A stretch of 64,000 nt of DNA from assembly GCA_902578545.1 (NCBI GenBank), contig CACHDI010000001.1:124001-188000 (forward strand), given 5' to 3'. Source of the stretch: an uncultured Alphaproteobacteria bacterium (lineage in GTDB: Bacteria; Pseudomonadota; Alphaproteobacteria; Rhodobacterales; Rhodobacteraceae). This document shows positions 117 to 17,547 of this stretch, one piece after another. The first letter of the stretch is position 1; each line of letters starts with the position of its first letter. The translations under genes and the position numbers were made by a program. A model generated the notes under the pieces. That model was given only the letters and a program-made list of their open reading frames with translations. It made no database searches and was not told the origin of the DNA.

Positions 117-1391
117 CTATCCAAACAAAAATGGAATCTTGGCAGTTCCAACAGCTGCCTCTATATTTTTTCCAGATGAAATTTTTGTTTTTATAACATT
201 TATCCTAATTTGCTCCCATACTTTGTTATTAGCGCCGCCACCGACAGTTAAAATATGTTTTGGAAAACTACCACCTAATTTATAAATGGATTCATAAGAT
301 TTTTTTTCTATTTTAGCCATAGACTCAAATAATCCATGAAGAAAAAAGGAATCACTTTGAGGTCGGGGTGTTAGGCGCGGCTTAAGTTTAGGGTCATTTA
401 TTGGAAATCGTTCCCCCATTTTTAATAAAGGGTAGTATTCTAATCCACTTGAACTATTTGGATCTATATCCTTACTCAAATTTACTATCTGATTTTCATT
501 AAAAAACTTTTTTAATACATTTCCACCTGTGTTTGATGCTCCACCAGCAAGCCAATATTGTCCTATTTTATGTGAATATAGACCTATTTCTGCATTTTCT
601 ATTTGATTTTTTGATAATACCTTTATGGCTAATGTGCTACCTAGAGAAGATACGGCTGATCCTATTTCAAAATTTGTACAAGACAAGAATCCAGCATTAC
701 TATCAGTGGTACCAGCATATATAATAGTATTTTTATCCAAACCAAGTTCTGAAGCTACAGTTTCATTTATTTTCCCAAGTTTAGTTCCAACGGGAAATAC
801 TTTAGGCAACAAGTTTTTTTTCAAACCTGTCTTAAATATCCATTCAGGCCAATAGTTTTTTTCAACATTATACCCTAACTTAAGGGTGTTATTATGATCT
901 GAAAATCCACCTTTTTTTAAAAAATTAGCAACAATAAAATCAGCCTGATGCATTAAAAACTTGGCTGCCCTTTTCTTATCTTCTGCTATTAATTTAAGTG
1001 CTCTGGCAAGAGTTGAATTTTGACCTTTAGCAATATGTTGTTCAGGTGAATATTTTTCAATTATTTTTGCCTCTTTTCTAAATCCAGTAGTATCATACAT
1101 AAGAGCTCTAGTTACAGGTTGTAATCTTTCATTTGCAAGTAATATGGTTCCGGAAGTCCCGTCCACTGCTAGCTTTTTTATTTCAAAAGAATTTATTCCT
1201 TTTTTATTAAGATTAATAAGATTTAATTTTATTGCGTGTTTGACTGTTTCCCACCAGTAAGAAGGATTAATCTTATCAGAATTTTGTTTTATGTGTTTAA
1301 TATTTGAAGTACTGAATATTTCACATTCAGCATTTAAGGTCGCAGTTTTCACACCAGATGTACCAATGTCTATACCCAATGAAAAAGTCAT
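117..1391 (-). CDS. FGGY-family kinase, plant/cyanobacterial D-ribulokinase type
   Basis: Predicted cytoplasmic ATP-dependent sugar kinase of 424 residues. The N-terminal phosphate-binding motif DIGTSGVKT lies at 8-16, the catalytic-base region GTTDSNAG at 227-234 (likely Asp230), followed by SLGSTLAIK, GGASNTGG, YYPLLKMGERFP and a C-terminal VGGGANNKVW. From memory, this motif chain matches the short kinases characterised as D-ribulokinases in plants and cyanobacteria rather than xylulokinase or RhaK. The length is normal for that subfamily and does not indicate truncation. It is the last gene of the leftward operon, and its ATG directly follows the stop of the upstream class II aldolase, so the two are probably translationally coupled. 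By family the product would be D-ribulose 5-phosphate. The true substrate in this deoxysugar context is unknown. Confidence 0.75.
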   Translation of the reverse strand: MTFSLGIDIGTSGVKTATLNAECEIFSTSNIKHIKQNSDKINPSYWWETVKHAIKLNLINLNKKGINSFEIKKLAVDGTSGTILLANERLQPVTRALMYDTTGFRKEAKIIEKYSPEQHIAKGQNSTLARALKLIAEDKKRAAKFLMHQADFIVANFLKKGGFSDHNNTLKLGYNVEKNYWPEWIFKTGLKKNLLPKVFPVGTKLGKINETVASELGLDKNTIIYAGTTDSNAGFLSCTNFEIGSAVSSLGSTLAIKVLSKNQIENAEIGLYSHKIGQYWLAGGASNTGGNVLKKFFNENQIVNLSKDIDPNSSSGLEYYPLLKMGERFPINDPKLKPRLTPRPQSDSFFLHGLFESMAKIEKKSYESIYKLGGSFPKHILTVGGGANNKVWEQIRINVIKTKISSGKNIEAAVGTAKIPFLFG

Positions 1392-2354
1392 TTATTCATT
1401 ACTTAAAGATTTTCTATATTTTTCAGCATCCCAATCCAAAAGTTCGGCTTCAGCTTTTTCACCAATAGGTTCAGGAACCCAATCTAGTGGAAGTCTTAAA
1501 AGAATATTAGATAAACATTGAAGCATAGATTTCTGTGTTTTGGATGCTTTTGATTTTATAAAAATCCCAATTCTTTTTTTTAAAAAAACTGGACTTGCTC
1601 TTGTGGGCTCAAAAGATATTTTTGGGCCTAAAAAAACGACATGATCAGGATAATAGGAGCCAGAAGAAACTATATCAATAGTATGATCATCAAAAGCAAT
1701 CCAGCTTTCTGGACACAATTTGTAGTTTGGAATATTTTCTGATTCAAATAATTGATTAATCTTTCTTATTATAGGCATTTTAAGTCTGAGTTCTACTTTA
1801 CGAATTAGGTTGGATACTTCCTTTACACTATTTCCACAACATATTAAGCCATGATTTTTTAAAATAAAAACCTGAGTTTTAGGATTTAAGTTATCCATAA
1901 TTTCTTTTGTTAGGTCTATACCGGGCTTGATATATTTGATAACTGATAAAGGCATATCATTTAATTTTTCTTTTGCTATTTTTATACCTTTTTCACTTAT
2001 TGCATGCACTAATGTTGATACAGAGTGAGTATGAGCTACAATTGACCAATTTAGGCAGGCATGAAAAGTTGTCTCAATAGACGGCCTCAACTTTATATTT
2101 TTATCCATAACAGCTTTCATTATATCTTGATTGTTATCAGTAGAAACACTATCTCTAATCAAATTAATATTAACTGGTACAAATATATTATCTGAAATTG
2201 AATCCGATAGCTCTTTTCCAGAGGCTTTTACCCACATATAGTTTTCATTTTTTATTGATGTATTTCCTCCTGCCCCTTGAACTTGCAAAGGGTCATTTCC
2301 TAATCTGTTAGAAAATTGAAGGAATTCTCTGTCATAAAGTTTGAAGTTAGACAT
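1392..2354 (-). CDS. class II aldolase/adducin-family protein
   Basis: 320-residue protein with an aldolase II domain over about residues 8-225. The sugar-phosphate-binding segment GAGGNTSI is near 28-35, SGKEL follows, the metal-binding pair lies in the segment AHTHSVS, and a third His is in KNHGLI. Such enzymes cleave ketose 1-phosphates, usually to DHAP and an aldehyde, using a divalent metal. It has no dehydrogenase domain and differs from both rhamnulose-1-phosphate aldolases in this window. It starts 13 bp after the rhamnose isomerase gene and abuts the D-ribulokinase-like gene, suggesting a kinase-aldolase pair. Substrate unknown. Decarboxylases and epimerases of the same superfamily are alternatives. 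Confidence 0.7.
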   Translation of the reverse strand: MSNFKLYDREFLQFSNRLGNDPLQVQGAGGNTSIKNENYMWVKASGKELSDSISDNIFVPVNINLIRDSVSTDNNQDIMKAVMDKNIKLRPSIETTFHACLNWSIVAHTHSVSTLVHAISEKGIKIAKEKLNDMPLSVIKYIKPGIDLTKEIMDNLNPKTQVFILKNHGLICCGNSVKEVSNLIRKVELRLKMPIIRKINQLFESENIPNYKLCPESWIAFDDHTIDIVSSGSYYPDHVVFLGPKISFEPTRASPVFLKKRIGIFIKSKASKTQKSMLQCLSNILLRLPLDWVPEPIGEKAEAELLDWDAEKYRKSLSNE

Positions 2355-2367
2355 AATTTTTAAATGT

Positions 2368-3660
2368 TTAAACTATTCCAGATGAACCTGGCGCTATAAT
2401 TGGACGAACTTCTGAAACTATTGAACGATATTTTGATTTTCTATAACAATATAAGGGGTCGATTGGTCCATTTGAATTTAATCTAGCTTTCTCCAAGATT
2501 GGAGTAACATCTGTCCTAAAAGCATTTTTTAAAATTTCTGAGGCCATCAAGGCATCGTTTTCTACTTGAGCAACTTTAAGGGCTTCTCTATCAACTATAT
2601 GAGCTTGAATAAATGCACGCTGAGTTTCAATTGCGCTAATTATCAAACTTTCAATAGGGTCAGTTATATTGTGAGATTGATCTAACATAAAAGCTGGTTT
2701 AAAATTATGATCTTCCAAATTAGCTTGAACCAATTCATTAAAAACTAAAAATAATTGATAAGGATTAATTGATCCGCTATCTAAATCATCATCCCCATAT
2801 TTGGAATCATTAAAATGAAAACCACCTAATTTTTTAAATTGTATAAGTCTTGAAACAATCATTTCAATATTTACAGTAGGTGCATGATGCCCCAAGTCTA
2901 CCAAACATTGTGCTTTATTACCTAATTCTGTAGCTGCTAAATAATTTGAACCCCAATCTTGAATGACTGTTGAATAAAAAGCAGGTTCATAAATTTTGTG
3001 TTCTAAGAACATCAGCCAATCATCTGGTAAATTTGTATATATTTTTGAGGTAGAATCCAAATATCTTTCAAATGATTTCTGAAAGTTACTTTGTCCTGGA
3101 AAGTTAGAGCCATCACCGATCCAAACAGTTAATGCTTTGGATCCTAATATTTTACCTAGTTCAATACATTCAATATTGAGTTCAATTGCCTGATTTCTAG
3201 TATCTAGATTAGTATGAGAAAGACTTCCATATTTATAAGAATGCTTTTGACCTACTTGATCTTGAAAAGTATTTGAATTCATAGCATCAAAACACATACC
3301 TCTATTTTGAGCATAGTCTTTGAGTTTATTGGGGTCCTTTGGTCTGTCCCATGGAATATGTATTGATATCGATGGAGTACACGCACTTAATTGGTTAATT
3401 ACCGAACAATCATCTACTTTATCAAATATATCTCGTGGTTCTCCTTTTCCAGGATATCTTGCAAATCTAGTTCCACCTGTACCAGTACCCCATGACGGAA
3501 TAGCAACATTATAATTTGAAGCTTTGGATACCAAATCTGAAATGGATAAACTTTTTCTATCTAGTAAAATAGCCAATTTTTCAAAGTCTTCTTCATGTGA
3601 TTTGGCACTTATTTCATTGCACTGAGTAATTAAATCATTGGATATAAGAAATTCAGACAT
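2368..3660 (-). CDS. rhaI: L-rhamnose isomerase, rhizobial type
   Basis: Converts L-rhamnose to L-rhamnulose, the first catabolic step after uptake. The protein has 430 residues with a TIM-barrel xylose-isomerase-like fold. Probable metal ligands are Glu220 (FLEHKIYEP), Asp255 (VDLGHHAP), His282 and the acidic cluster in HFNDSKYGDDDLD (282-294). The VDLGHHAPTVNIE and GGFHFNDSKYG blocks are typical of the rhizobial/Bacillus RhaI family rather than E. coli RhaA. It begins only 4 bp after the fused RhaD gene in the same operon, which supports a shared pathway. Confidence 0.88.
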   Translation of the reverse strand: MSEFLISNDLITQCNEISAKSHEEDFEKLAILLDRKSLSISDLVSKASNYNVAIPSWGTGTGGTRFARYPGKGEPRDIFDKVDDCSVINQLSACTPSISIHIPWDRPKDPNKLKDYAQNRGMCFDAMNSNTFQDQVGQKHSYKYGSLSHTNLDTRNQAIELNIECIELGKILGSKALTVWIGDGSNFPGQSNFQKSFERYLDSTSKIYTNLPDDWLMFLEHKIYEPAFYSTVIQDWGSNYLAATELGNKAQCLVDLGHHAPTVNIEMIVSRLIQFKKLGGFHFNDSKYGDDDLDSGSINPYQLFLVFNELVQANLEDHNFKPAFMLDQSHNITDPIESLIISAIETQRAFIQAHIVDREALKVAQVENDALMASEILKNAFRTDVTPILEKARLNSNGPIDPLYCYRKSKYRSIVSEVRPIIAPGSSGIV

Positions 3661-3664
3661 TTTT

Positions 3665-5767
3665 TCACCTGGTAAACGATTGAATATTTCCAGAATCTAC
3701 ATTGATAATATTACCTGTTGATTTTGAAGAAAGATCTGATGCCATAAAGTAAGCCGCCTCTGCGATATCTACAGGTAAAACAGATTTCTTAAGTAGAGAA
3801 CGTTGTTTATAATGTTCTTCCAAGTCCTCTTTATTTTTTTTGTTATAAGCAGACATCCTTTCATCAAGCCATTTTCCAGACCAAATTTTTGATCCTTGAA
3901 GTACAGCATCAGGATTAATTACATTTACTCTTATACCTGATGGGGCAGTTTCTAGTGCCAAACACCTGGCCAAGTGAATTTCACTAGCTTTTGCAGTGCA
4001 ATAAGCTGAAGCTAGAGGTGAAGCAGTTAGGCCATTTTTAGAAGCAATAAAAACTATGGATCCTCCCAAATTTTGAGAATACATTATTTTTATTGCTTCT
4101 CTAGAAACTAGGAAATAACCAGTGGATAATATTGACATATTTTGGTTCCAAAGTTCTAAGGAGGTTTCTTCTATTTTTGCAGAGGAAGAAATTCCAGCAT
4201 TAGAAAATAATAAATCAACACCTCCAAAAATTTCAGCTGATTCTTTATATGCATTAGTTACTGATTCTTCATTTGTGACATCCATAATTATGGAATGAAC
4301 AACATCCTCACCAAATTTGGACTGAAAATCATTTTTTACTCTATTCAGATTATTTTCGTCATTATCCGTTAGGATTACACACGCACCTTCCGATAAAACT
4401 TTATTTGCAATAGCAGAACCAATACCTCCAGCTGCTCCCGTAATTAAAGCAATTTTTCCAGCCATAGGTTTTGCCTTTGGCATTCTCTGCAATTTTAAGT
4501 CTTCTAACAACCAGTACTCAATATCAAAAGCTTCTTGTTCTGGTAAACCCATATATTCAGAAACTGAAGATGCTCCACGCATCACATTGATTGCATTGAC
4601 ATAAAACTCACTTGAAATTCTTGCTGTTGGTTTATCTTTTGCAAAAGTTATCATCCCTATTCCTGGTATTAGATAAACAACGGGATAAGGATCTCTAACT
4701 TTTGGACTATCTGAATATTTGCATCTTTCATAATAAGAAATGTAATATTTTTTATAATCTTCTAATTGGTTTGGAAGTTCCTTAATTACATTATCTAAAT
4801 TGTCTTCGTCAATTGCATCTAAAATAAGGGGCCTTATTTTGGTTCTTAAAAAATGATCAGGACAACTAGTACCTAGTGGTCCAAGTTCTTTTAATCTTGA
4901 TGAATTAACAAATTCTAAGACTTCATCACTATCATTAAAATGGCCTATTTTAAATTCATCTTTTGAAATCAAACCTCTTATATGTGGCATTAGTTCACGA
5001 ACTATTTTTTGTCGTGAGGTTTTACCTAGTGGATTATATATTTTGCCACCAAAATTTTTTGATTTATCCATGTTTTCTGAAAACCACCTTATAGACTTAT
5101 TAATGATTTCTATCGTAATCTCATAACATCTTTCAGCATCATCATCCCATGTAAATAATCCATGACTTTCCAGAACAACACCCTTTGAGGATGGGTTATC
5201 TTCACTATATTTTCCAATCCAAAGTCCAAGTTCAAAGCCAGGTCTTTTCCACGGTAACCAACCAATTTCATCACCAAATATTTGCTTAGTTAATTCTTTT
5301 GAATTTTTTGAAGCTGCTATAGCAATGATAGAATCTGCATGTACATGGTCTACATGTTTTCTTTGAACATAAGCATGCAAAGGAGTATCAATTGATGCAG
5401 CTCTGCTATTTAGATTATATGTACAATGAGGTAAATAACCAACCATTTCATCTTCAAATTCAACACCTCTATAAATAGATTTTAATTCATTCAGTTTATC
5501 CATATAAAGGGAAGCCAATCCAGATTTACTGATGGAACCTAGATCTCCCCCTGATCCTTTTACCCATAAAATCTCTACTTCATCATTGGTCAATGGATCT
5601 TTCGACATTACTTTAGCAGATGTATTTCCTCCACCATAATTTGTTACTCTTTTGTCAGCACCTAAAATGTTTGAACGATAAATCAATTTCTCAACTTCTG
5701 ACATTTCTTTGGCTTTTGTTTTGTTCCATAGATTTGGGATTTCAGGATTTTTATAATCAATTTCCAT
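3665..5767 (-). CDS. rhaD: bifunctional rhamnulose-1-phosphate aldolase / short-chain alcohol dehydrogenase
   Basis: Two-domain protein of 700 residues. The class II aldolase half (about 20-330) shows YGGGNTSAK at 44-52, a His-x-His pair at 141/143 and His202 in ESHGLFTW. It should split L-rhamnulose 1-phosphate into DHAP and L-lactaldehyde. The short-chain dehydrogenase half begins near 436, with the nucleotide-binding TGAAGGIG at 443-450 and the YxxxK motif at Tyr589/Lys593. It is expected to oxidise or reduce the lactaldehyde. This fusion is the known rhizobial/Bacillus RhaD architecture. It lies between the RhaK-like kinase (48-bp gap) and RhaI (4-bp gap). A second, unfused aldolase sits at 14790-15647. 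Confidence 0.9.
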   Translation of the reverse strand: MEIDYKNPEIPNLWNKTKAKEMSEVEKLIYRSNILGADKRVTNYGGGNTSAKVMSKDPLTNDEVEILWVKGSGGDLGSISKSGLASLYMDKLNELKSIYRGVEFEDEMVGYLPHCTYNLNSRAASIDTPLHAYVQRKHVDHVHADSIIAIAASKNSKELTKQIFGDEIGWLPWKRPGFELGLWIGKYSEDNPSSKGVVLESHGLFTWDDDAERCYEITIEIINKSIRWFSENMDKSKNFGGKIYNPLGKTSRQKIVRELMPHIRGLISKDEFKIGHFNDSDEVLEFVNSSRLKELGPLGTSCPDHFLRTKIRPLILDAIDEDNLDNVIKELPNQLEDYKKYYISYYERCKYSDSPKVRDPYPVVYLIPGIGMITFAKDKPTARISSEFYVNAINVMRGASSVSEYMGLPEQEAFDIEYWLLEDLKLQRMPKAKPMAGKIALITGAAGGIGSAIANKVLSEGACVILTDNDENNLNRVKNDFQSKFGEDVVHSIIMDVTNEESVTNAYKESAEIFGGVDLLFSNAGISSSAKIEETSLELWNQNMSILSTGYFLVSREAIKIMYSQNLGGSIVFIASKNGLTASPLASAYCTAKASEIHLARCLALETAPSGIRVNVINPDAVLQGSKIWSGKWLDERMSAYNKKNKEDLEEHYKQRSLLKKSVLPVDIAEAAYFMASDLSSKSTGNIINVDSGNIQSFTR

Positions 5768-5815: not shown

Positions 5816-7171
5816 TTAAGAGACTAAACTTTTCCATTTCGTATAGTATTGTTTCATTTTATTTGATGTTTTTCCAATGATTTCTTTACATGGATTATCA
5901 AATCTACATCCATTTATATTTTCAAATGCTATTGTAGCTGCACCTAAGGAGGTGCCTTCAGCTCTTTTATTACAATAAATTTTTTGAGTGCTACATAATT
6001 CTTTCAACAACTCCATATAGTACATATTATTAGCAAAACCTCCATCAATAATTATTGTATTCTTAGAATCTAAAAGGTCTAAAATCTCTTTAGTCATACA
6101 AACTAAATAAATAGTTGCTAAGGCTGCTAAGCTTTCCCTATTTGAAATATTTTCACCTACTACTTCACCCACTTTTTTAGGGAATGGTCCTCCACTTGTA
6201 AAGCTTGGAAGTGCAAAAATATCTGATCCTAAGATATAGTCTATGCTTTCTCTATTTATTGGTGATCTGTAAGAATGTGATATGAGATCAAAGTCTCGCC
6301 CTCCCATAAATCTTGCTGTCGCAATTGGCTTATTATCGACAGTAATGTTACAAAGCATATCTCGTTCAGGATCTAATTTTTTTAGGGAAGTGTCAGTGTT
6401 AAAAATTACCACCCACGTACCTGTAGATATTAAGGTAAAACTTTTAAATCCAAGTGATCGGTAAAAATATAAACTTGAATTGCTGTCATGCAAACCATTA
6501 TAAATTTTTAGTTTTTTATCAGTTTTTAGTTCTAGAGAACCTAAAAATTCACCTGCTCGCTTAAATTTTGGAAATTTTTTATCCCAACCCTTTTTTTTGG
6601 TAAGAGAGCTTGGCTCGTTTCGCATAGGTGACCATAGATAAGAATGACATCCTATATAAGAAATTTCGGAAACTTTTTTTCCAGTAAATTTCCAGCCCCA
6701 ATATTGAGGTAGACTTAAAATGCTATCACACTCTTCAAATATTTCAGGAAATTTTTTTTGTCTCCAAAATATATGCACGGCATAATTTAAACCCATTGGA
6801 AGTCTAGGGGTATATGTTTCTGAGAAAGAAGGCTTTATATTATCGAATTCCCTATTTATTTCTATCGGTGGTTCATTTTCATAATCTAAGATTGGTAAAG
6901 CTAGTTTTTCATTTCTTATTAATGCAAAAGTACATCCATGGGCAGTTACTATTGTATGCCTAACTCCTGCTTCATCATAAAAGACTTGTAATGAATCCAT
7001 AATCCAGTTCCAATAATGATTCACATCCAACTCTGATATTCCTTTATTTACTATCCAGTTGGGTTTCAAGCGAGTATCATTAATTAAGTTACCACCTCTA
7101 TCAAAACATAAAATTTTTGCACTTGTTTTTCCAATATCTATTACGGCAAGATTGTCTTCAACTGATTGCAT
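5816..7171 (-). CDS. rhaK: rhamnulokinase-like FGGY kinase (first copy)
   Basis: 451-residue FGGY kinase resembling rhizobial RhaK, which phosphorylates L-rhamnulose. The N-terminal motif VIDIGKTSAK lies at 10-19, TAHGC at 76-80, the catalytic-base region GLHDSNSS near Asp229, then STGTWVVIF and RFMGGRDF. It is the first gene of the leftward operon and is transcribed divergently from the ABC importer across a 188-bp spacer. It shares the same block order with the second copy at 13351-14736 (DIGKT, THG, LGCHS, GTW, RFMGGR), so the two are paralogues. Which copy acts on L-rhamnulose cannot be told from sequence. Confidence 0.82.
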   Translation of the reverse strand: MQSVEDNLAVIDIGKTSAKILCFDRGGNLINDTRLKPNWIVNKGISELDVNHYWNWIMDSLQVFYDEAGVRHTIVTAHGCTFALIRNEKLALPILDYENEPPIEINREFDNIKPSFSETYTPRLPMGLNYAVHIFWRQKKFPEIFEECDSILSLPQYWGWKFTGKKVSEISYIGCHSYLWSPMRNEPSSLTKKKGWDKKFPKFKRAGEFLGSLELKTDKKLKIYNGLHDSNSSLYFYRSLGFKSFTLISTGTWVVIFNTDTSLKKLDPERDMLCNITVDNKPIATARFMGGRDFDLISHSYRSPINRESIDYILGSDIFALPSFTSGGPFPKKVGEVVGENISNRESLAALATIYLVCMTKEILDLLDSKNTIIIDGGFANNMYYMELLKELCSTQKIYCNKRAEGTSLGAATIAFENINGCRFDNPCKEIIGKTSNKMKQYYTKWKSLVS

Positions 7172-7359: not shown

Positions 7360-8892
7360 ATGGCAAGATTTTTAATGGAAAAAATAAATCAAGATGTCAC
7401 TTTAAAAATAAAAAATGCTACTAAATCATTTGCAGGTGTTACAGTTCTTAATAATGTCAGTTTTGATTTATATAGAGGAGAAGTTCATTCTCTGTTAGGA
7501 GAAAATGGAGCAGGAAAATCTACCTTAATCAAAATATTATCTGGTGTTCATAAACCAGATCAGGGCAAGGTTATTTTAGAAAATAAAGAATTTGTATTTA
7601 ATTCTCCAAAAGAAGCATTTAAAAATGGTATTGCAACAGTTTATCAAGAACTACTCGTTTTTCCAGAATTAACAGTTGCGGAAAATATATTTCTTGGTCA
7701 TACCCCAAAAACAAAAATTGGATTAATTGATTGGAAAAAAATAAAAGCTGATTCTCGAAAAATCTTGGATAGCTTAGACAGTCATGATTTAGACGTTAAT
7801 GCCAGAGTGGGGAGCCTATCAGTTGCAAATAGGCAAAGAGTAGAGATTGCTAAAGCTCTAAGTCAGAAAACAAAAGTCTTAATAATGGATGAACCAACAG
7901 CAGCTCTTGCTGACACTGATGTTAAAAAACTTATAACCGTGGTTAAAAGGTTAAGAGAACAGGGTGTAAGTATATTATATGTAAGCCATAAAATGCCGGA
8001 AATTTTTGAACTTTCTGATAAAGTTTCAGTCTTAAGAGATGGAAATCATGTTGGTACTTTTAATATTAAGGATGTCTCTGAGGATTTGTTAGTATCAAAA
8101 ATGGTTGGTCGGCCAGTTGATAAACTCTATCCTATTTCTAAAGGTAAATTTGGAAAACCAATTCTTGAAGTTAATAATTTTACTGATGGGTTAAGATTTA
8201 AACAAGTTTCCTTTAAACTTAAGAGAGGTGAAATTTTGGGTATTGCTGGAGTGGTTGGTTCTGGAAGGTCAGAACTTGCTCAATCAATATTTGGTATAAA
8301 TCCGTCGAAAGGTGGATCAATTAAAATTGATGAAAAAGAGGTATCTATAAAAAAACCAAAAGATGCTAGAAATTTAGGTATTGCTTATATTCCTGAAGAT
8401 AGAGGCACTCAAGGTTTGGTAAAAGAAATGAAAATAAGTCATAATGTATCAATGGCTAATTTAGATCGTGAAGCAAATGGCATTTTAATAATTTTTAAAA
8501 AAGAAATGCAAAATGCTATAAATGCAATCAATAAATTAGGTATTCGAGCAAGAAACGCATTACAATTAGTTCGTCAATTGTCGGGAGGTAATCAGCAAAA
8601 AGTAGTAGTAGCAAAATGGTTACAAACCGAACCTAGAATATTAATTATGGATGAACCTACCAGGGGTATTGATGTTGGTGCAAAATCAGAAATTCATCAG
8701 TTAATGAGGAATTTGGCAGATGAAGGATTGGCTATTTTAATGATTTCAAGCGAGTTACCTGAGGTTTTAGGCATGAGCGATCGTGTATTAGTAATGAACA
8801 ATGGTACAATAACTAAAGAATTTTCGAAAGAACACGCTACTCCTGAAAATGTAGGTGCAATTATGACCCAGAAAGTTAAAGAAACCGCATGA
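7360..8892 (+). CDS. sugar ABC transporter ATP-binding protein (RbsA/RhaT type)
   Basis: 510-residue ATPase with two tandem ABC domains, energising import of a monosaccharide (here probably L-rhamnose). The first Walker A is GENGAGKSTL, followed by Walker B VLIMDEPTAAL. The second domain carries the degenerate Walker A GVVGSGRSEL, the signature LSGGNQQK and ILIMDEPTRGID. A degenerate second site is usual in this carbohydrate-uptake family. Two ATG codons are possible (7360 and 7375). Neither has a strong ribosome binding site, and the upstream one is taken here. Its stop overlaps the next start by 4 bp (ATGA), implying translational coupling. Confidence 0.88.
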   Translation: MARFLMEKINQDVTLKIKNATKSFAGVTVLNNVSFDLYRGEVHSLLGENGAGKSTLIKILSGVHKPDQGKVILENKEFVFNSPKEAFKNGIATVYQELLVFPELTVAENIFLGHTPKTKIGLIDWKKIKADSRKILDSLDSHDLDVNARVGSLSVANRQRVEIAKALSQKTKVLIMDEPTAALADTDVKKLITVVKRLREQGVSILYVSHKMPEIFELSDKVSVLRDGNHVGTFNIKDVSEDLLVSKMVGRPVDKLYPISKGKFGKPILEVNNFTDGLRFKQVSFKLKRGEILGIAGVVGSGRSELAQSIFGINPSKGGSIKIDEKEVSIKKPKDARNLGIAYIPEDRGTQGLVKEMKISHNVSMANLDREANGILIIFKKEMQNAINAINKLGIRARNALQLVRQLSGGNQQKVVVAKWLQTEPRILIMDEPTRGIDVGAKSEIHQLMRNLADEGLAILMISSELPEVLGMSDRVLVMNNGTITKEFSKEHATPENVGAIMTQKVKETA

Positions 8893-9863
8893 ATACTCAA
8901 AATGAAAATAGTAATAAATTTTTTTCGAGATTTTTAATTAACTATGGACAGGAGCTTGTTTTACTTGCCTCCATTATAATTTTATTTGTCGTTGTATCAC
9001 AGGTTAATCATAGATTTTTAGGCGGAAATAATCTTAATACGATTTTTGCAGGTAATGCTTATATCGGAGTTGCTGCTATTGGGATGTCTATACTTATAAT
9101 CACTGGTAATATTGACGTTTCAGTTGGTGCTCTTATAGGTGTTTTAGCCACAATTTGCGGAACTCTAGCTGTTTCAGGTTACCCTATTTGGTTTGCATGG
9201 ACAGCACCCATTTTGGTGGGTATTGCTGTGAATTCTCTTGTTGGAATTATTGTAGCATATGCAGGAATACCTTCTATTGTAGTTACCCTTGGTATGATGT
9301 CTATCTTAAGGGGTGGTTTAATAAGTGTTACAGGGGGTGATTGGATCACTGACATGCCAGAAGGGTTCTTTTTAGCTCAACAAGATTTTATGGGAATAAG
9401 AGTCCCGTTATTAGCATTAATATTCTTTACGATTCTTATGTTTTATATAATGAGTAACACGACATGGGGAAGATCACTTTATGCAATTGGGGGCAATCCT
9501 GAAGCAGCTAGAACATCAGGTATAGATCTAAAAAAAGGTGTTGTAATAGCTTTTGCTGTGCATGGTATGTTTGTTGGGTTATCAACTATTTTATTCGCAA
9601 CTCAACTCAATATTATTCAATCGACAGTTCCACCAAATCTTGAACTTACGGTAATTACGGCCTCTGTAATTGGGGGAGTTTCGATCATGGGAGGCACCGG
9701 TACGGTTATTGGTTCATCATTAGCTACAATTTTATTCGCTGCTATTGGGTCATCTTTAATATTTATAGGAGTTTCTGCTTATTGGCTAAGAGCTATAATG
9801 GGGATTTTGATACTATGTACAGTCTTGGCTGATATGGCTAGAAGAAGAAGAGTGGTATCATGA
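8889..9863 (+). CDS. sugar ABC transporter permease (RbsC/RhaP type)
   Basis: Integral inner-membrane permease of 324 residues with many hydrophobic helices, starting with a segment near residues 20-40. The family blocks TGNIDVSVGAL, TTWGRSLYAIGGNPEAARTSG and GGVSIMGGTGTV are clear. It pairs with the following permease to form the heterodimeric channel. It overlaps the ATPase gene and the next permease gene by 4 bp each, so the three are expected to be made in a fixed ratio. Confidence 0.87.
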   Translation: MNTQNENSNKFFSRFLINYGQELVLLASIIILFVVVSQVNHRFLGGNNLNTIFAGNAYIGVAAIGMSILIITGNIDVSVGALIGVLATICGTLAVSGYPIWFAWTAPILVGIAVNSLVGIIVAYAGIPSIVVTLGMMSILRGGLISVTGGDWITDMPEGFFLAQQDFMGIRVPLLALIFFTILMFYIMSNTTWGRSLYAIGGNPEAARTSGIDLKKGVVIAFAVHGMFVGLSTILFATQLNIIQSTVPPNLELTVITASVIGGVSIMGGTGTVIGSSLATILFAAIGSSLIFIGVSAYWLRAIMGILILCTVLADMARRRRVVS

Positions 9864-10804
9864 GGATGAAATCCATATTTAGACATGAAACAATCTTATT
9901 TTTAGTAGTTATTGTCGCTTTGGTAATTCTTTCAATACAGGCTGAACAATTCGCAACTATTGATAATTTGCTTAATCAAGGTCGTTTTTTAACCGAGGTC
10001 AGCCTTGTAGCTTTAATAATGACATTTGTTATTGTGACAGGTGGAATTGACCTATCTGTTGGTTCAATATTGGGACTTTCAGCTATAGTTTTAGGTGTTG
10101 CCTGGAAAAAGCTAGGTTTACCATTACCATTAGCTATATTAGTAGCTTTGAGTGTCGGAACTTTGGCTGGTTTATTTAATGGTATAATTATTACTCGTTT
10201 TAAAGTTCCTCCTTTGATTGCAACACTTGCAACATTAGCACTTTACAGAGGGCTAGCTGAAGGGATTAGTCAGGCTAGGTCAATTAGAGGTTATCCAGAG
10301 TGGTTTTTTATATTGGGACAAGGAGAGTTTTTTGGTATACCTACACAATTATGGATTGTAGCTTTTTTTACTCTTCTTACGGGATTTATTCTTACCTATA
10401 CAACTTGGGGTAGAGCAACTTATGCAATAGGTGCAAACGAAACTGCTGCACGATTTTCTGGCATAGCTGTGGATAAAACTAAATTATTCATTTATGCAGC
10501 CTCAGGTTTTGCTGCGTCATTAGCAGCTATTATTTTTGTTTCTAGAGTTTCAACAACTCGTTCTGATATGGGAATGGGATTAGAACTTGACGCTATAACT
10601 GCAGTAGTTCTAGGGGGGACTAGTATTTTTGGGGGTAAGGGGACAATAGTGGGTACTTTTTTTGGTTTAATACTTATACAGATACTCAAGAATGGATTAT
10701 CCTTAGCTGGGGTAAAATCAGATGGTACTTACATTGCAATAGGGTTGGTCTTAATATTAACTCTATTAATCAGTAACCTATTTAATCGAAATAGCGAGGG
10801 TTAA
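9860..10804 (+). CDS. sugar ABC transporter permease (RbsC/RhaQ type)
   Basis: Second permease subunit, 314 residues, with a hydrophobic N-terminal helix, the block VTGGIDLSVGSILG, the motif TTWGRATYAIGANETAARFSG and LGGTSIFGGKGT. It is paralogous to the upstream permease, the usual two-permease arrangement of rhamnose and AI-2-like importers. It starts inside the end of the preceding gene (ATGA overlap). A 71-bp gap with a good ribosome binding site (GGGAG) then precedes the binding-protein gene. Confidence 0.87.
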   Translation: MRMKSIFRHETILFLVVIVALVILSIQAEQFATIDNLLNQGRFLTEVSLVALIMTFVIVTGGIDLSVGSILGLSAIVLGVAWKKLGLPLPLAILVALSVGTLAGLFNGIIITRFKVPPLIATLATLALYRGLAEGISQARSIRGYPEWFFILGQGEFFGIPTQLWIVAFFTLLTGFILTYTTWGRATYAIGANETAARFSGIAVDKTKLFIYAASGFAASLAAIIFVSRVSTTRSDMGMGLELDAITAVVLGGTSIFGGKGTIVGTFFGLILIQILKNGLSLAGVKSDGTYIAIGLVLILTLLISNLFNRNSEG

Positions 10805-10875
10805 ATATGGGAAAAATAAATCGCTATAAAATTAAGTATAGTAATTATTAACTATTTAAAAAATGGGAGAATGAT

Positions 10876-11976
10876 ATGAAAAAATACTTATTATTAATAT
10901 CAGGGTTATTATTTAGTAGCTCATTAGCTTTAGCAGGAGATTGGACAGGTGGAGATGACTTACCCACAAATCCATTGCCATGTAGTGGACCTGCACCGGC
11001 AGGTGAAGCCAAGCCATACGATGGTGGATCTCCAACTGGGGCACCTAATAGAAAAGGTAAAACAATAACAGTTGTCGATGTACCAAAACTAGTTGGTATT
11101 GGATATTTTTCTGCCACTACAAAGGGTATCTTGGATGCTGCCGCAGAAATGGGTAGTATGAATGCTAAAACAGATGGACCTTCAGAGGCTAATATAGACG
11201 ATCAAATTACTCTAATAGATAACTACATTACTCAAGGTGTTGACGGAGTTCTATTTGCAGCTAATGACCCTGGAGCAATTGCACCAGTTCTTAAGAAAGC
11301 GTTAAGCAAAGGAATTAATGTGGTCGGTTATGATGCTAACTCAGATCCTGATGCAAGACAATGGTTTGTAAATCAGGCTGAATTTAATGGTATTGCAAAA
11401 TCATTGGTTGATAATATGGCTAGAGAGATTGGTGGCTCTGGTGGAGTAGCGATTGTGACTTCTACATTTACTACTCCAAACCAAGCGAGGTGGATTGCTG
11501 AAATGGAAGCTTACAGCAATAAGTGCCATCCTAAGCTTGAATGGTTAGAGACTGTAGAGGCGCAGGAAGATAATATCCTTTCCTTTAATCAAGCCAATAC
11601 CCTTATCAATAAATATGGAAGCGATCTAAAAGGGATCTATGGTATGACAAGTGTTGCTACTCCAGCTTCTGCAGACGCAGTTACCCAAGCCAATCAATGT
11701 GGTAATATTGCTGTTGTAGGACTTGCAACTCCTAATGCTATGAAACCTTATGTTAATAGTGGTTGTGTAGAATCAGTTGTTTTATGGAATCCTGTAGACT
11801 TAGGTTATGCGGCTGCCTATGTGTTGCGAGCTGTTGCAGATGGTGACTTAAAACCTGGTGCAACTTCTGTTAATGCTGGAAAACTAGGAGAATTACAAGT
11901 CATAAATGGAAGTGAAATACTTCTTGGAGCACCTTATACTTTTAATAAGGGCAACATAAACGACTTTGATTTCTAA
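10876..11976 (+). CDS. periplasmic sugar-binding protein, RhaS/LsrB-like
   Basis: 366-residue periplasmic solute receptor. A Sec signal peptide covers residues 1 to about 21 (cleavage near ALA-GDW). The mature protein has a periplasmic-binding-protein type 1 fold. The C-terminal segment with VVLWNPVDLGYAAAYV and LLGAPYTFNKGNI resembles rhamnose and AI-2 receptors. A Gly/Pro-rich linker (about residues 25-60) precedes the first domain. It follows the two permeases in the same direction and has a GGGAG ribosome binding site 6 bp before its ATG. A stable hairpin follows its stop, which may raise the level of this message over its neighbours. L-rhamnose is the likeliest ligand from context. Confidence 0.82.
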   Translation: MKKYLLLISGLLFSSSLALAGDWTGGDDLPTNPLPCSGPAPAGEAKPYDGGSPTGAPNRKGKTITVVDVPKLVGIGYFSATTKGILDAAAEMGSMNAKTDGPSEANIDDQITLIDNYITQGVDGVLFAANDPGAIAPVLKKALSKGINVVGYDANSDPDARQWFVNQAEFNGIAKSLVDNMAREIGGSGGVAIVTSTFTTPNQARWIAEMEAYSNKCHPKLEWLETVEAQEDNILSFNQANTLINKYGSDLKGIYGMTSVATPASADAVTQANQCGNIAVVGLATPNAMKPYVNSGCVESVVLWNPVDLGYAAAYVLRAVADGDLKPGATSVNAGKLGELQVINGSEILLGAPYTFNKGNINDFDF

Positions 11977-11995: not shown

Positions 11996-12020
11996 GTGTC
12001 GGCAAATAAATTGCCGGCAC
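11996..12020 (+). other. RNA hairpin after the binding-protein gene
   Basis: GTGTCGGCAA (11996-12005) pairs with TTGCCGGCAC (12011-12020) across a 5-nt ATAAA loop. The result is a 10-bp stem with a single G-U wobble, unusually GC-rich for this genome. It starts 19 nt after the receptor stop codon and 38 nt before the epimerase start. A short T-run follows about 12 nt later, too distant for a classic terminator. It is most likely a 3' stabiliser or partial terminator giving excess binding protein. Confidence 0.6.
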
Positions 12021-12058
12021 ATACGAATGAAATTTTTTCTGTTTTTAGAGGATTTTTA

Positions 12059-12907
12059 ATGCAAGGTTTTGGTGTTCATACCAGTATGTGGACAATGAAA
12101 TGGGACAGAAATGGCGCTGAAAGTGCCATTCAGGGTGCTATTGATTATAGTATGGATTTCTTAGAAATTGCATTATTAGATGCCCCATCAGTTGATCCTA
12201 TTCATACTAGAAATCTTTTAGAAAAAAACGAAATTAAAGCTGTGTGTTCTCTGGGATTACCTGAACCTGTATGGCCTTCAAAAAATCCAGATGATGCAAT
12301 TGAATTTTTAAAAGTAGTGATAGATACTACAAAAGAAATGGGAGCAGAAGCAGTTTCTGGTGTAACTTATGGTGGGATAGGAGAAAGGTCAGGTTTCCCG
12401 CCAACAGACACAGAGATTTCAAATGTTGCTCGTTGCCTTGAAATTTCAGCAAATTATGCCAAATCAAAGGGTATTCTTTTTGGTATCGAACCAGTTAATA
12501 GATATGAAACACACATTATTAACACCGCTTGGCAGGCTAGAGAATTAATTGAAAGGATTGGTTCAGATAATATCTTCATCCATTTAGATACTTACCATAT
12601 GAATATAGAGGAAAAAGGTGCTGCAAACGGAATTTTAGCTGCCCGAGAATATCTCAAGTACATTCATCTTTCTGAAAGTGATAGAGGTACTCCAGGAGAA
12701 GGATGTTGCGATTGGGATGAAATTTTTGCAACTTTAGCAGCAATAAATTTTAAAGGAGGACTTGCAATGGAAAGCTTCATAAATATGCCTCCTGAAATTT
12801 CTTATGGATTATCTATATGGAGGCCAGTCGCTAAAAATTTTAAAGAGGTAATGGATAAAGGGCTTCCCTTTTTAAAAAATAAATCACAACAATATGGCTT
12901 AATTTGA
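12059..12907 (+). CDS. D-tagatose/D-psicose 3-epimerase-family TIM-barrel protein
   Basis: 282-residue xylose-isomerase-like TIM barrel. The metal-binding set expected for ketose 3-epimerases is present: Glu144 (FGIEPVNRYE), Asp177 (HLDTYH), His203 (IHLSES) and Glu238 (AMESF). The family interconverts free ketohexoses at C3. The ATG at 12059 is preferred. It gives the canonical N-terminus MQGFGVHTSMW and is preceded by AGAGGA, whereas a longer reading from GTG 11996 would translate the hairpin. It follows the importer genes on the same strand and converges with the mutarotase gene. The substrate is not determined. Related hydroxypyruvate or inosose isomerases are alternatives. Confidence 0.78.
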   Translation: MQGFGVHTSMWTMKWDRNGAESAIQGAIDYSMDFLEIALLDAPSVDPIHTRNLLEKNEIKAVCSLGLPEPVWPSKNPDDAIEFLKVVIDTTKEMGAEAVSGVTYGGIGERSGFPPTDTEISNVARCLEISANYAKSKGILFGIEPVNRYETHIINTAWQARELIERIGSDNIFIHLDTYHMNIEEKGAANGILAAREYLKYIHLSESDRGTPGEGCCDWDEIFATLAAINFKGGLAMESFINMPPEISYGLSIWRPVAKNFKEVMDKGLPFLKNKSQQYGLI

Positions 12908-12917
12908 GTTACTATAA

Positions 12918-13256
12918 TTAATTCATATGAAACATTAGTTTAAGATCTTTAACTTTTGGTGAATTGTCCTTATTAGTAATCATGATATCTCCCATAAAAT
13001 GCCACCATTTTTGCATAATATTATTCTTTGGTAATTCACTCATTTTGTGATTTTTCAATCTATACAAAACAGCAAACAAAACATTTTTTTCTTCATCCAA
13101 AAAAATTGAGTAATCCCTGATTCCTGTTTCTCTTAAAAGAGAAACAAGCTCTGGCCAAATTTCATCGTGCCTCTTTTTATACTCTGATTTAAATCCTGGT
13201 TTCAAATTCATTGTGAAAGCAATTTTCTCTAGATTTTCATTTTTTTTATTATTCAT
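12918..13256 (-). CDS. rhaM: L-rhamnose mutarotase
   Basis: Small cytoplasmic protein of 112 residues in the RhaM/RhaU family, which interconverts the alpha and beta anomers of L-rhamnose for the isomerase. Recognisable blocks are MNLKPGFKSEYKKRHDEIWPE, the IRDYSIFLD region and MQKWWHFMGDIM. The ATG has AAAAGG six bases upstream. It is a lone leftward gene between two rightward ones: its 3' end converges 10 bp from the epimerase stop and it diverges from the second RhaK copy. Its presence strongly supports L-rhamnose as one substrate of the island. Confidence 0.86.
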   Translation of the reverse strand: MNNKKNENLEKIAFTMNLKPGFKSEYKKRHDEIWPELVSLLRETGIRDYSIFLDEEKNVLFAVLYRLKNHKMSELPKNNIMQKWWHFMGDIMITNKDNSPKVKDLKLMFHMN

Positions 13257-13350: not shown

Positions 13351-14736
13351 ATGAATAAAACCCAAAACATAGCCATAATTGATATAGGGAAAACTAATAT
13401 TAAAATAGTATTAGTCAATTTAAATTCTTTTACTGAATTAATTGTATTAAGTGAGCCAAACGTAGTGGCAAACAAAGGATTATACCCTCATTATGATACG
13501 GATAAATTATGGAAATTTATAAAGTCATCTTTAGGAACACTTTATAGAAGATATTCTTTTGAGGCTATAACAGTTACTACCCATGGAGCTGCAGTGGCAC
13601 TTATTGATAAAAATGGAAGATTAATTTTACCAATTATTGATTATGAATTTGATGGACCAGATACTTTATGTAAAGATTATGAAAAAATAAGACCAAATTT
13701 TAAGGAAACTGGAACTCCTAAAGCACCATTGGGAGTTGTGATTGGAGCACAAATTTTTTGGCAAAAAAAATTTTTTCCTCAAAGTTTTAAAAGTTTAAAA
13801 TCAATTATTACTTATCCGCAATATTGGGTTGGTCTTTTAACAGGTAAGTGGTGTACGGAAGTCTCTTACTTGGGTTGTCATAGCGATTTGTGGCTTCCTT
13901 TTAAAAATAGATTCTCAAGCCTAGTTACTGATCTTGGAATAAATAAAAGAATTGCTTCAATTAGAAAAGCTAATGATATAATTGGTTCCATCTTGCCTAC
14001 CATAAATGAAGAATTAGGAATAAAAAAATCTATCCCTGTTTACTGTGGAATACACGACAGTAATGCATCACTTTTTCGGCATTTAATCGAACAAGATAAA
14101 CCCTTTTCGCTTGTAACTACAGGAACTTGGGTAATAATTATGTCAGTAGGGGGAGAAAAGAAAACTTTTAATCCTAATAAAGACATTCTAATTAATGTAG
14201 ACGCATTTGGTAATCCAGTTCCTTCTGCTAGGTTTATGGGAGGAAGAGAATTTGAAATAGTAACTAAAAATATTTCTATAAAACCAACAGCAGTGGACAT
14301 TACGTCAGTATTTAATAAATCTATTTTTCTTTTTCCTGCTTTGGTCCCTCAGTACGGACCTTTTAAAGGTCGAGAATCGCATTGGTCAATTTCAGAAAAT
14401 AAGATCAATGAAGGAGAAAAAGTAGTTGCTGTTTCTTATTATCTAGCAATGGTAACTTTGGTATCTTTAGAGGCTTTAGGTGCTAAAGGTTCAATAATAA
14501 TTGAGGGTCCATTTACAAGAAATAAATTTTATCTGGATTTAATGGCAACAGTTTTGGAAGCTGATTTATATTTATCTGAGGGATCTTTAACTGGAACATC
14601 AATTGGTTCCACACTTTTAATAAATAATAATACCAGTAATTTATATAAAATTAAAAAATATAATAATCCAGAAGGTGAATATAAACAAAATTTGATAAAT
14701 TACTCAAAAAAATGGAAGCAATTAGTTAATAAATAA
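13351..14736 (+). CDS. rhaK: rhamnulokinase-like FGGY kinase (second copy)
   Basis: 461-residue paralogue of the kinase at 5816-7171. It has IIDIGKTNIK at 9-18, TTHGAAVAL near 76-84, the catalytic-base region GIHDSNAS with Asp236, TTGTWVIIM and RFMGGREF. It heads a rightward cluster with the unfused RhaD aldolase and a xylulokinase-like kinase, so it probably makes the ketose 1-phosphate cleaved by that aldolase. The 94-bp spacer to the divergent mutarotase gene is almost pure A/T. No strong ribosome binding site is close to the ATG (AAGG lies about 19 bp upstream). Confidence 0.78.
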   Translation: MNKTQNIAIIDIGKTNIKIVLVNLNSFTELIVLSEPNVVANKGLYPHYDTDKLWKFIKSSLGTLYRRYSFEAITVTTHGAAVALIDKNGRLILPIIDYEFDGPDTLCKDYEKIRPNFKETGTPKAPLGVVIGAQIFWQKKFFPQSFKSLKSIITYPQYWVGLLTGKWCTEVSYLGCHSDLWLPFKNRFSSLVTDLGINKRIASIRKANDIIGSILPTINEELGIKKSIPVYCGIHDSNASLFRHLIEQDKPFSLVTTGTWVIIMSVGGEKKTFNPNKDILINVDAFGNPVPSARFMGGREFEIVTKNISIKPTAVDITSVFNKSIFLFPALVPQYGPFKGRESHWSISENKINEGEKVVAVSYYLAMVTLVSLEALGAKGSIIIEGPFTRNKFYLDLMATVLEADLYLSEGSLTGTSIGSTLLINNNTSNLYKIKKYNNPEGEYKQNLINYSKKWKQLVNK

Positions 14737-14789
14737 CTTAATGTTTTTAGAGCTTTGGTTAATAAAGACTTAAAAAAAGGTAATATAAA

Positions 14790-15647
14790 ATGATAGGATT
14801 TAAACATCCTTTAAAGTGTGTGGAAAGCCTCGCTCCTATTACTCGGTTATGTTGGGAAATGGGTTGGAACGAAATTAATGGGGGGAATATTAGTTGGCGA
14901 TTATCAAATGAACATATTGATAATGTCCTGAAGCAAATTGTCAAAATTGATGAAGATTTTATAAAACTTTCAAAACCACAACCAACTTTAGATGGTGAAT
15001 ATTTTTTAGTTACTGGTTCAGGTAAATATTTTCGTCATGCAATTGAAAAGACTGATGAAGTTTTTGGAATTGTTCAAATTAAAGATGGTGGTAACAGTTA
15101 TCAAAAAATATGGGGATTTAAAGGGGGCGGTAAACCCACCTCTGAATTTGCAACTCATCTAACAGGGCATTCGATAAGAAAAAGACAATCTAAGGGAAGA
15201 GAAGAAGTTATTTTACATTGCCACCCACCTGAATTTATAATTTTAAGTTTTTTAATGCCACTTGACTCTTCTCTTTTAAGTTTAGCGTTATGGAAGACAA
15301 TGCCTGAATGCATTGTTTTTTTTCCTGATGGTATAAGGGTAGTTCCTCCTATATTACCGGGAACTAATAAAATAGCAGATGCGTCTGCCATTGAACTTGA
15401 GAAAAGTAGAATTATTTCTTGGAGCCATCATGGAATTTTTGTTTCTGAGGAAAGTCCAGATGCAGTATTTTCGTTAGTAGAAACTATTGAAAAGGCATCA
15501 GCTATGCAAAGAAAAATTATTGCTGCTGGTGGTGCTAAGCAGACGATAAGTTTACAATTATTAAGAGAATTAACAGATGCAACTGAAAATATTAGAGTGT
15601 GCGATCCAGATATTTTGATTAAAGAAGAAAAAAAATCAAATTTATGA
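14790..15647 (+). CDS. rhaD: rhamnulose-1-phosphate aldolase, unfused E. coli RhaD type
   Basis: 285-residue class II aldolase resembling E. coli RhaD along its length. It shows GWNEINGGNISWRL, LVTGSGKYFR, catalytic Glu119 (PTSEF), zinc ligands His143 and His145 (LHCHPP) and His214 (WSHHGIF), plus the C-terminal GAKQTIS block. It should cleave L-rhamnulose 1-phosphate, or a close 6-deoxyketose or pentulose analogue, to DHAP and an aldehyde. AAAGG stands 8-9 bp before the ATG. It lies between two FGGY kinases on the same strand. Reaction type is duplicated by the fused aldolase at 3665-5767, which has very different sequence and architecture. Confidence 0.87.
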   Translation: MIGFKHPLKCVESLAPITRLCWEMGWNEINGGNISWRLSNEHIDNVLKQIVKIDEDFIKLSKPQPTLDGEYFLVTGSGKYFRHAIEKTDEVFGIVQIKDGGNSYQKIWGFKGGGKPTSEFATHLTGHSIRKRQSKGREEVILHCHPPEFIILSFLMPLDSSLLSLALWKTMPECIVFFPDGIRVVPPILPGTNKIADASAIELEKSRIISWSHHGIFVSEESPDAVFSLVETIEKASAMQRKIIAAGGAKQTISLQLLRELTDATENIRVCDPDILIKEEKKSNL

Positions 15648-15665
15648 CTTCTTGGGAGATTTCAA

Positions 15666-17153: not shown

Positions 17154-17547
17154 TGAGTCGCAAAAATAAATAACTAAAATATCAGTACATCCATAAAGAA
17201 TGTTTTTTTAATATTTCATATTGGAATTATTTTTAAAATTGGATCAATTAAATAAATACAAAAAATGTACAGGCGCAATAAAATCTTTAAAGTTTTTCGA
17301 GGGCAGAGTTATTCTCAAACCACTGATTTAAGTTCGGATTTTTAACACTTAAATAAAACATTCACTACCTAATTTTTTGAATAAACAAATAATAAAATTA
17401 AGTTTTTTTATTAAAAATACTAGTTAAAATAGTATGCTCATTATTAGATGATGATTAACAGTGCAATAATGGTAAATAATGTTCAACATAATTTAAAATA
17501 CTAAAATAAAAAAACCTCGGTCATTTAATATTTGGGAGTTATTCATT
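17154..17547. promoter_or_regulatory. 394-bp non-coding stretch with an inverted repeat before the DenD-like gene
   Basis: No open frame, RNA gene or gene remnant is recognisable here. The clearest structure is ATACTA (17417-17422) and TAGTAT (17430-17435) as inverted arms around a 7-bp spacer, lying 113-131 bp upstream of the following gene. That distance would allow an operator or upstream activator site. The following gene has GGGAG about 9 bp before its ATG, at the right end of this stretch. Confidence 0.4.

Follow-up and report, generated by a model that had tools for sequence, protein, structure and literature searches.

The kinase and aldolase genes at the end of the rhamnose operon of an uncultured Rhodobacteraceae bacterium are not specific to rhamnose, but are the core of a portable cassette that is found in at least four operon types. 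The pair encodes a D-ribulokinase-like kinase (DRK) and a stand-alone class II aldolase (ALD) and lies within a stretch of 64,000 nucleotides (contig CACHDI010000001.1, positions 124,001 to 188,000), the whole of which is referred to here as the window. The original observation of this pair is confirmed and its first interpretation is partly supported; the cassette, which usually includes a HAD phosphatase, recurs beyond the window and is apparently undescribed, and a literature search found no published role for the ALD-DRK-HAD set. A plausible if tentative reading is that ALD and DRK are two of the three genes of a pentulose cassette, portable between operons, that links pentulose-1-phosphates with D-ribulose-5-phosphate (Ru5P).

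The gene pair and its enzyme families

The rhamnose operon of the window runs in the order rhaK-rhaEW-rhaI-ALD-DRK on the minus strand, with ALD and DRK as its terminal genes (Table 1). ALD follows rhaI on the same strand after a gap of 13 bp and its TAA stop codon directly abuts the ATG of DRK, as the original prediction had described for the operon end. The next gene past DRK is part of an unrelated spermidine/putrescine-type ABC system, so the pair marks the end of the operon. The claim that the classical rhamnose pathway needs neither gene is likewise borne out. The RhaK-type kinase has 40% identity to kinases from rhizobial operons of the rhamnose and the L-ribulose-3-epimerase type, the binding protein of the rhamnose ABC transporter shares 78% identity with its counterpart in the Aminobacter rhamnose operon, and the ketose 3-epimerase-like protein retains the E...HLDTxHMNIEE...H...E active-site motifs. 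The assembly that contains the window is about 2 Mb in size and 83% complete. A second carbohydrate cluster is located on the plus strand at 13351-18519 and encodes an FGGY_C_2 kinase, an E. coli-type RhaD, a XylB-like kinase and a D-erythronate dehydrogenase (NF043036, 356 bits with a cut-off of 325).

Table 1 Genes of the rhamnose locus in the window
Feature	Position	Strand	Remarks
DRK, SePSK/AtXK-1-type FGGY D-ribulokinase-like kinase	117..1391	-	424 aa ORF
ALD, stand-alone class II aldolase, RhaE/COG3347-like, Zn His triad + Glu94	1392..2354	-	320 aa ORF
RhaI, L-rhamnose isomerase, rhizobial type	2368..3660	-	TIGR02629, 672 bits, over cut-off
RhaEW, bifunctional rhamnulose-1-phosphate aldolase/lactaldehyde dehydrogenase	3665..5767	-	
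RhaK-type kinase	5816..7171	-	FGGY_C_2 domain
Rhamnose ABC transporter: ATPase, two permeases, binding protein	7360..11976	+	
Ketose 3-epimerase-like TIM barrel	11996..12907	+	31% identity to Mesorhizobium L-ribulose 3-epimerase
RhaM, L-rhamnose mutarotase	12918..13256	-	

DRK comprises an FGGY_N and FGGY_C domain pair that scores above the Pfam cut-offs (56 and 37 bits). Among solved structures its best matches are AtXK-1 (5htr, E 3e-81) and SePSK (5htn, E 4e-75), whereas E. coli XylB is a far weaker match (2.5e-11). The curated models for XylB (TIGR01312, 110 bits, cut-off 380) and RhaB/RhaK (TIGR02627, 20.6 against 528 bits, and no match to FGGY_C_2) do not recognise it, and the scores for other curated kinase models are likewise far under their cut-offs. 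In a tree of 132 rows, which derives from a quick search and has long outgroup branches, DRK falls into a clade of 120 rows that includes SePSK, AtXK-1 and the cyanobacterial kinases (SH-aLRT 97) and excludes E. coli XylB, RhaB, FucK, AraB, GlpK and LyxK, as well as the RhaK-type and XylB-like kinases of the window itself. Phylogeny and model scores therefore agree in placing the kinase outside RhaK and XylB, as had been proposed from its motifs. A special plant or cyanobacterial origin is not supported, as the nearest neighbours of the kinase are three single-cell genomes of close relatives, followed by HTCC2255, all within a Rhodobacterales clade. This nesting rules out a transfer from plants or cyanobacteria, and DRK was inherited within the Rhodobacterales. 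Kinases of this type are also common in alpha- and gammaproteobacteria, beyond plants and cyanobacteria.

The SePSK residues D8, T11, S72, K163, D221 and S222 are all present in DRK (D8, T11, S80, K171, D230 and S231), which thus shares the catalytic and ribulose-contacting residues of SePSK and AtXK-1 at about 37% identity. ATP hydrolysis by SePSK was stimulated by D-ribulose to a much greater extent than by L-ribulose, D-/L-xylulose or glycerol, but the position that is phosphorylated was not settled in that work (PMC4880283). DRK is distinguished from SePSK and AtXK-1 by its Rhodobacterales branch and by its operonic association with an aldolase, whereas the cyanobacterial and gammaproteobacterial copies stand alone.

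ALD is composed of one Aldolase_II domain (PF00596, 65.8 bits) and a C-terminal extension. Its Glu94, His108, His110 and His168 are invariant in 42 members and align with Glu73 and the three Zn-binding histidines of FucA, and by domain, histidine triad and catalytic glutamate ALD is a class II (Zn) sugar-phosphate aldolase. The predicted structure, for which six rows from plasmid records were left out, is confident (pLDDT 92.4, pTM 0.91) and its best solved matches are the class II aldolases 3m4r and FucA, with 6btd and E. coli RhaD lower. ALD had been described as unlike both rhamnulose-1-phosphate aldolases of the window, and this holds in so far as it forms its own clade, apart from RhaEW, in the aldolase tree, but it is nevertheless distantly homologous to the aldolase part of RhaEW (27% over 177 aa, E 2e-9). 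RhaEW converts rhamnulose-1-phosphate to DHAP and lactate (PMC3870299). ALD shares the class II aldolase domain with RhaE, the aldolase half of RhaEW, and with 3m4r, but differs from RhaEW in that it is a stand-alone and shorter protein (320 aa) with Glu94 in place of an Asp. The possibility that ALD is a misnamed RhaD or RhaEW is ruled out by its score (TIGR02632, 65 bits against a cut-off of 568), its domain content, which includes no SDR domain, and the tree. An assignment as AraD (L-ribulose-5-phosphate 4-epimerase) is argued against by Glu94, as E. coli AraD has an Asp at the position of FucA Glu73.

A cassette with several operon contexts

A search of 293 genomes from the order of the window organism gave ALD matches in 29. 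Where a sampled locus contains both ALD and DRK, the two are direct neighbours in 84 of 86 cases, a count that covers genome, plasmid and genome_contigs loci, and the spacing is nearly always within 20 bp. Beside them nearly always lies a third gene that encodes a TIGR01459 HAD phosphatase (83 of 88 kinase rows with cassette context), and the notion of a simple two-gene unit of kinase and aldolase is accordingly not supported. The sole apparent fusion of ALD and DRK (L083) is an order artefact, hence there is none.

The contexts of the kinase were surveyed in 118 rows including the window, which were picked by similarity and are no unbiased census. The largest class, with 42 rows, combines an MBL lactonase and UPF0261 with an ABC transporter, and the HAD is present in all 42. 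Erythritol-like polyol operons with an EryA-like kinase, a GlpD-like dehydrogenase, EryC, TpiB and RpiB account for 17 rows (HAD in 16), and a RhaK-type kinase together with an L-ribulose 3-epimerase for a further 13 (HAD in 13). The rhamnose context is found in just 9 rows including the window (HAD in seven) and other contexts with the cassette in 7 (HAD in five), while 30 rows from cyanobacteria, gammaproteobacteria and a few others have no cassette. This bears out the suspicion that rhamnose operons are not the usual home of the pair. In L033, L035 and other Rhodobacterales, a conserved catabolic locus comprises an ABC transporter, GntR, an MBL lactonase-like protein, HAD, ALD, DRK, UPF0261 and an AraD-like class II aldolase; literature searches on UPF0261 catabolism and on a link to erythritol found nothing useful.

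The window/L094 pair and an Aminobacter/Mesorhizobium-like group fall into different well-supported clades of both the DRK and the ALD tree, and a minimum of four changes to or from the rhamnose context is needed on the kinase tree. These separate positions mean that the cassette entered rhamnose operons on at least two independent occasions. Of the rhamnose-context rows, the window and L094 are the two without an adjacent HAD. The only TIGR01459 HAD of the window genome is located beside ribF and was rejected as the cassette HAD, to one of which it is just 28% identical. A housekeeping-looking TIGR01459 HAD also adjoins a ribF-like gene at L080:8747-9625, and as a matter of speculation this protein is a candidate for the group's riboflavin-pathway phosphatase, which is poorly assigned.

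L094 carries this locus as well, at a DNA identity of about 95% across 10 kb, although DRK is lower at 82-89%. Relative to L094, the dN/dS values of 0.12 for DRK and 0.23 for ALD place both genes under purifying selection, and this constraint, together with the conserved adjacency, marks the pair as more than a chance arrangement. The dS of DRK (L094:9001-10281) reaches 0.65 as against 0.10-0.20 for its operon neighbours ALD, rhaI, rhaEW and rhaK, a contrast that suggests a local recombination event at DRK. An insertion of about 5.8 kb with several genes, one of them sulfotransferase-looking, separates DRK from the ABC transporter at L094:10798-15839. In the sister single-cell genomes L095 and L096 the whole stretch between ALD and the XylB-like gene is missing, and the rhamnose operon is absent. 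Their DRK is intact and still constrained (dN/dS 0.25), and upstream of it 50-200 bp match the 3' end of ALD, with stops and frameshifts. This remnant (L095:8805-9000 and L096:8953-9000) marks a deletion of about 14 kb that removed the rhamnose genes. The kinase is therefore retained without the rhamnose genes and without ALD, and can be useful alone.

Genomic and enzymatic links to pentuloses

Of the second ketoses that the original prediction had offered, a pentulose is the one to which the neighbours point, namely an L-ribulose 3-epimerase, a phosphoribulokinase-like domain and a HAD that resembles ribulose-1,5-bisphosphate (RuBP) 5-phosphatases. The kinase family of DRK, with the D-ribulose-responsive SePSK among its members, points the same way, and the window itself encodes RhaI, a RhaK-type kinase and a ketose 3-epimerase-like protein. 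The L-ribulose 3-epimerase of M. loti (3vyl), which has been characterised biochemically and accepts D-ribulose as a substrate with 20% relative activity, belongs to a RhaK and epimerase operon that carries the cassette. Among 151 genomes of the rhizobial family, 7 out of 7 with the Mesorhizobium-type epimerase (counted at >=66% identity) have ALD about 6-7 kb away, compared with 18 of the remaining 144 (Fisher p ~1.6e-6, with the kinship of genomes ignored). A paralogue of the epimerase at 50-55% identity occurs in 10 genomes, none of which has ALD within 10 kb of it.

Six distant ALD loci are without DRK (an E. coli IncR plasmid, Hirschia, Azospirillum and genomes G302, G366 and G294). Nearby they encode a protein that ends in a phosphoribulokinase/uridine-kinase domain, together with a HAD, the best curated model of which is ribulose-1,5-bisphosphate 5-phosphatase, below the cut-off (168-191 bits against 330 for the HADs of polysaccharide clusters). 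A polysaccharide-type cluster is conserved at L064:6022-14984, L066, L068, L087, L089 and L091 and contains an ALD relative, a phosphoribulokinase-domain protein of about 660-709 aa with a long N-terminal part without Pfam match, the RuBP-5-phosphatase-like HAD, a small GDPD-like protein, an NTP transferase, GtrA and GT2. Possibly this cluster encodes a glycan pathway that uses ribulose phosphates; a search for literature on ribulose-1-phosphate (Ru1P) in polysaccharide synthesis found nothing useful.

The reactions in question have precedents. For L-rhamnose isomerases, side activity on L-lyxose and D-ribose has been reported (PMC10908623). The use of L-lyxose through RhaA-RhaB-RhaD is established, and in engineered E. 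coli pentulose-1-phosphates are cleaved by aldolases of the rhamnose or fucose pathway (PMC5727944). This route shares with the model proposed below the conversion of a pentulose-1-phosphate to DHAP and glycolaldehyde by rhamnose-pathway enzymes, but has no dedicated kinase-phosphatase pair that moves the phosphate to O5. In haloarchaea, Ru1P is cleaved by a FucA-like class II aldolase, which acts with a RuBP phosphatase in the non-carboxylating pentose bisphosphate pathway (PMC9700705). The cassette resembles this pathway in assembling a class II aldolase, a HAD and a kinase around ribulose phosphates, and the HADs that adjoin the distant ALD relatives recall it as well, but the haloarchaeal aldolase is FucA-like, and the cassette has a HAD of another subfamily and another kinase. 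From its genomic partners we infer that ALD may function as a Ru1P aldolase.

A putative relocation of phosphate and its rivals

In the proposed pentulose cassette, an enzyme of the host operon would make a ketopentose-1-phosphate. In the rhamnose and epimerase operons this would be the RhaK-type kinase, acting as a 1-kinase on L-xylulose or another pentulose that comes from RhaI or the ketose 3-epimerase, and in the polyol operons the GlpD-like dehydrogenase would supply it. ALD would catalyse a reversible aldol cleavage and condensation between pentulose-1-phosphate and DHAP plus glycolaldehyde, which would yield D-ribulose-1-phosphate; L-xylulose and D-ribulose are C4 epimers. Host operons would supply either a pentulose-1-phosphate or DHAP and glycolaldehyde. 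The HAD phosphatase would strip the C1 phosphate from D-ribulose-1-phosphate and DRK would phosphorylate the free D-ribulose, probably at O5, to give Ru5P for the pentose phosphate pathway. A kinase and a phosphatase side by side are understandable if each works at a position of its own. In the window, where the HAD gene is missing, another phosphatase may serve or the main substrate of DRK may be free D-ribulose, such as RhaI could form from D-ribose. The data establish the enzyme families, their phylogeny, the conservation of the cassette and its repeated uptake into operons, the genomic partners and the catalytic residues; the substrates, the direction of the reaction, the phosphorylation of O5 over O1 and any role of the HAD are what we infer here.

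In its fullest form this would be a phosphate-relocation shunt that L-lyxose and L-xylulose (through the rhamnose enzymes), L-ribulose and pentitols enter as pentulose-1-phosphates, and in which aldol exchange to D-ribulose-1-phosphate, dephosphorylation at C1 and rephosphorylation at C5 would deliver all carbon to the pentose phosphate pathway. Such a complete shunt is possible but doubtful. The three-step version is weaker for the window, from which the HAD has been lost, and no obvious pentulose-1-phosphate maker was found in the largest context class, the 42 Rhodobacterales-type MBL lactonase/UPF0261 loci.

The main rival, which is somewhat unlikely, is a straight catabolic route where DRK would be a 1-kinase on D-ribulose or a similar pentulose, ALD would cleave the 1-phosphate to DHAP and glycolaldehyde and the HAD would be an accessory phosphatase against stalled sugar phosphates. 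The genomic evidence for pentuloses fits this route equally, the tight coupling of kinase and aldolase follows the logic of FucK-FucA and RhaB-RhaD, and the unsettled phosphorylation site of SePSK (PMC4880283) also speaks for it. However, a phosphatase beside a kinase would be futile unless they act on different positions, and for the lone DRK of cyanobacteria and gammaproteobacteria, which occurs without ALD, a 1-phosphate would presumably be a dead end. It is the regiochemistry of DRK that decides between this route and the relocation of phosphate. We consider it unlikely that the pair of the window has no specific role for the sugars of the rhamnose operon, with DRK as a general D-ribulose salvage kinase, as is presumed for cyanobacterial DRK, and ALD as a passenger that is being lost. 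The intact DRK behind a degraded ALD 3' end in L095 and L096, which have no rhamnose operon, would agree with such a role, as would the absence of the cassette HAD from the window and L094, but the ALD of the window is intact, evolves under purifying selection (dN/dS 0.23) and lies 13 bp behind rhaI, and the cassette joined rhamnose operons independently in Rhizobiales.

Metabolite repair, in which the cassette would clear wrong ketose-1-phosphates or glycolaldehyde that arise from the promiscuity of class II aldolases in the host operon, is improbable. A second class II aldolase (RhaEW, RhaD, FucA-like or AraD-like) is often present in the host operon and the cassette is common to unrelated operons, yet no other aldolase was recognised in the sampled part of the Mesorhizobium L-ribulose 3-epimerase operons and ALD is likely to be the main aldolase there. 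A module akin to the DHAP shunt for 5-deoxypentuloses or other deoxyketoses, the other variant in the original prediction, is very improbable. It has nothing positive in its favour beyond the match of the ALD model to the 5-deoxyribose disposal aldolase of B. thuringiensis (6btd/6btg), with which ALD shares fold and superfamily, and 6btd ranks just 16th, among class II aldolases generally. Moreover, the cassette kinase is of a different family from that of the shunt, a D-ribulokinase-like enzyme would have to phosphorylate O1 of a 5-deoxypentulose, which has no O5, and neither a 5-deoxyribose kinase nor an aldose-phosphate isomerase was recognised among the annotated neighbours.

All enzyme families of the cassette are known, and the three-gene set is present in many marine Rhodobacterales and nitrogen-fixing Rhizobiales. 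The window organism is a small marine bacterium, and the pair closes its rhamnose-sugar operon. The cassette most likely feeds five-carbon sugars into central metabolism via an undescribed route. If this is true, it would explain the occurrence of a plant/cyanobacterial-type D-ribulokinase in sugar operons, provide a physiological setting for the Mesorhizobium L-ribulose 3-epimerase, which is used in rare-sugar production, and constitute a carbon-conserving alternative to the glycolaldehyde-producing cleavage of pentulose-1-phosphates. The cassette also offers a direct way to test which position is phosphorylated by kinases of the SePSK family.
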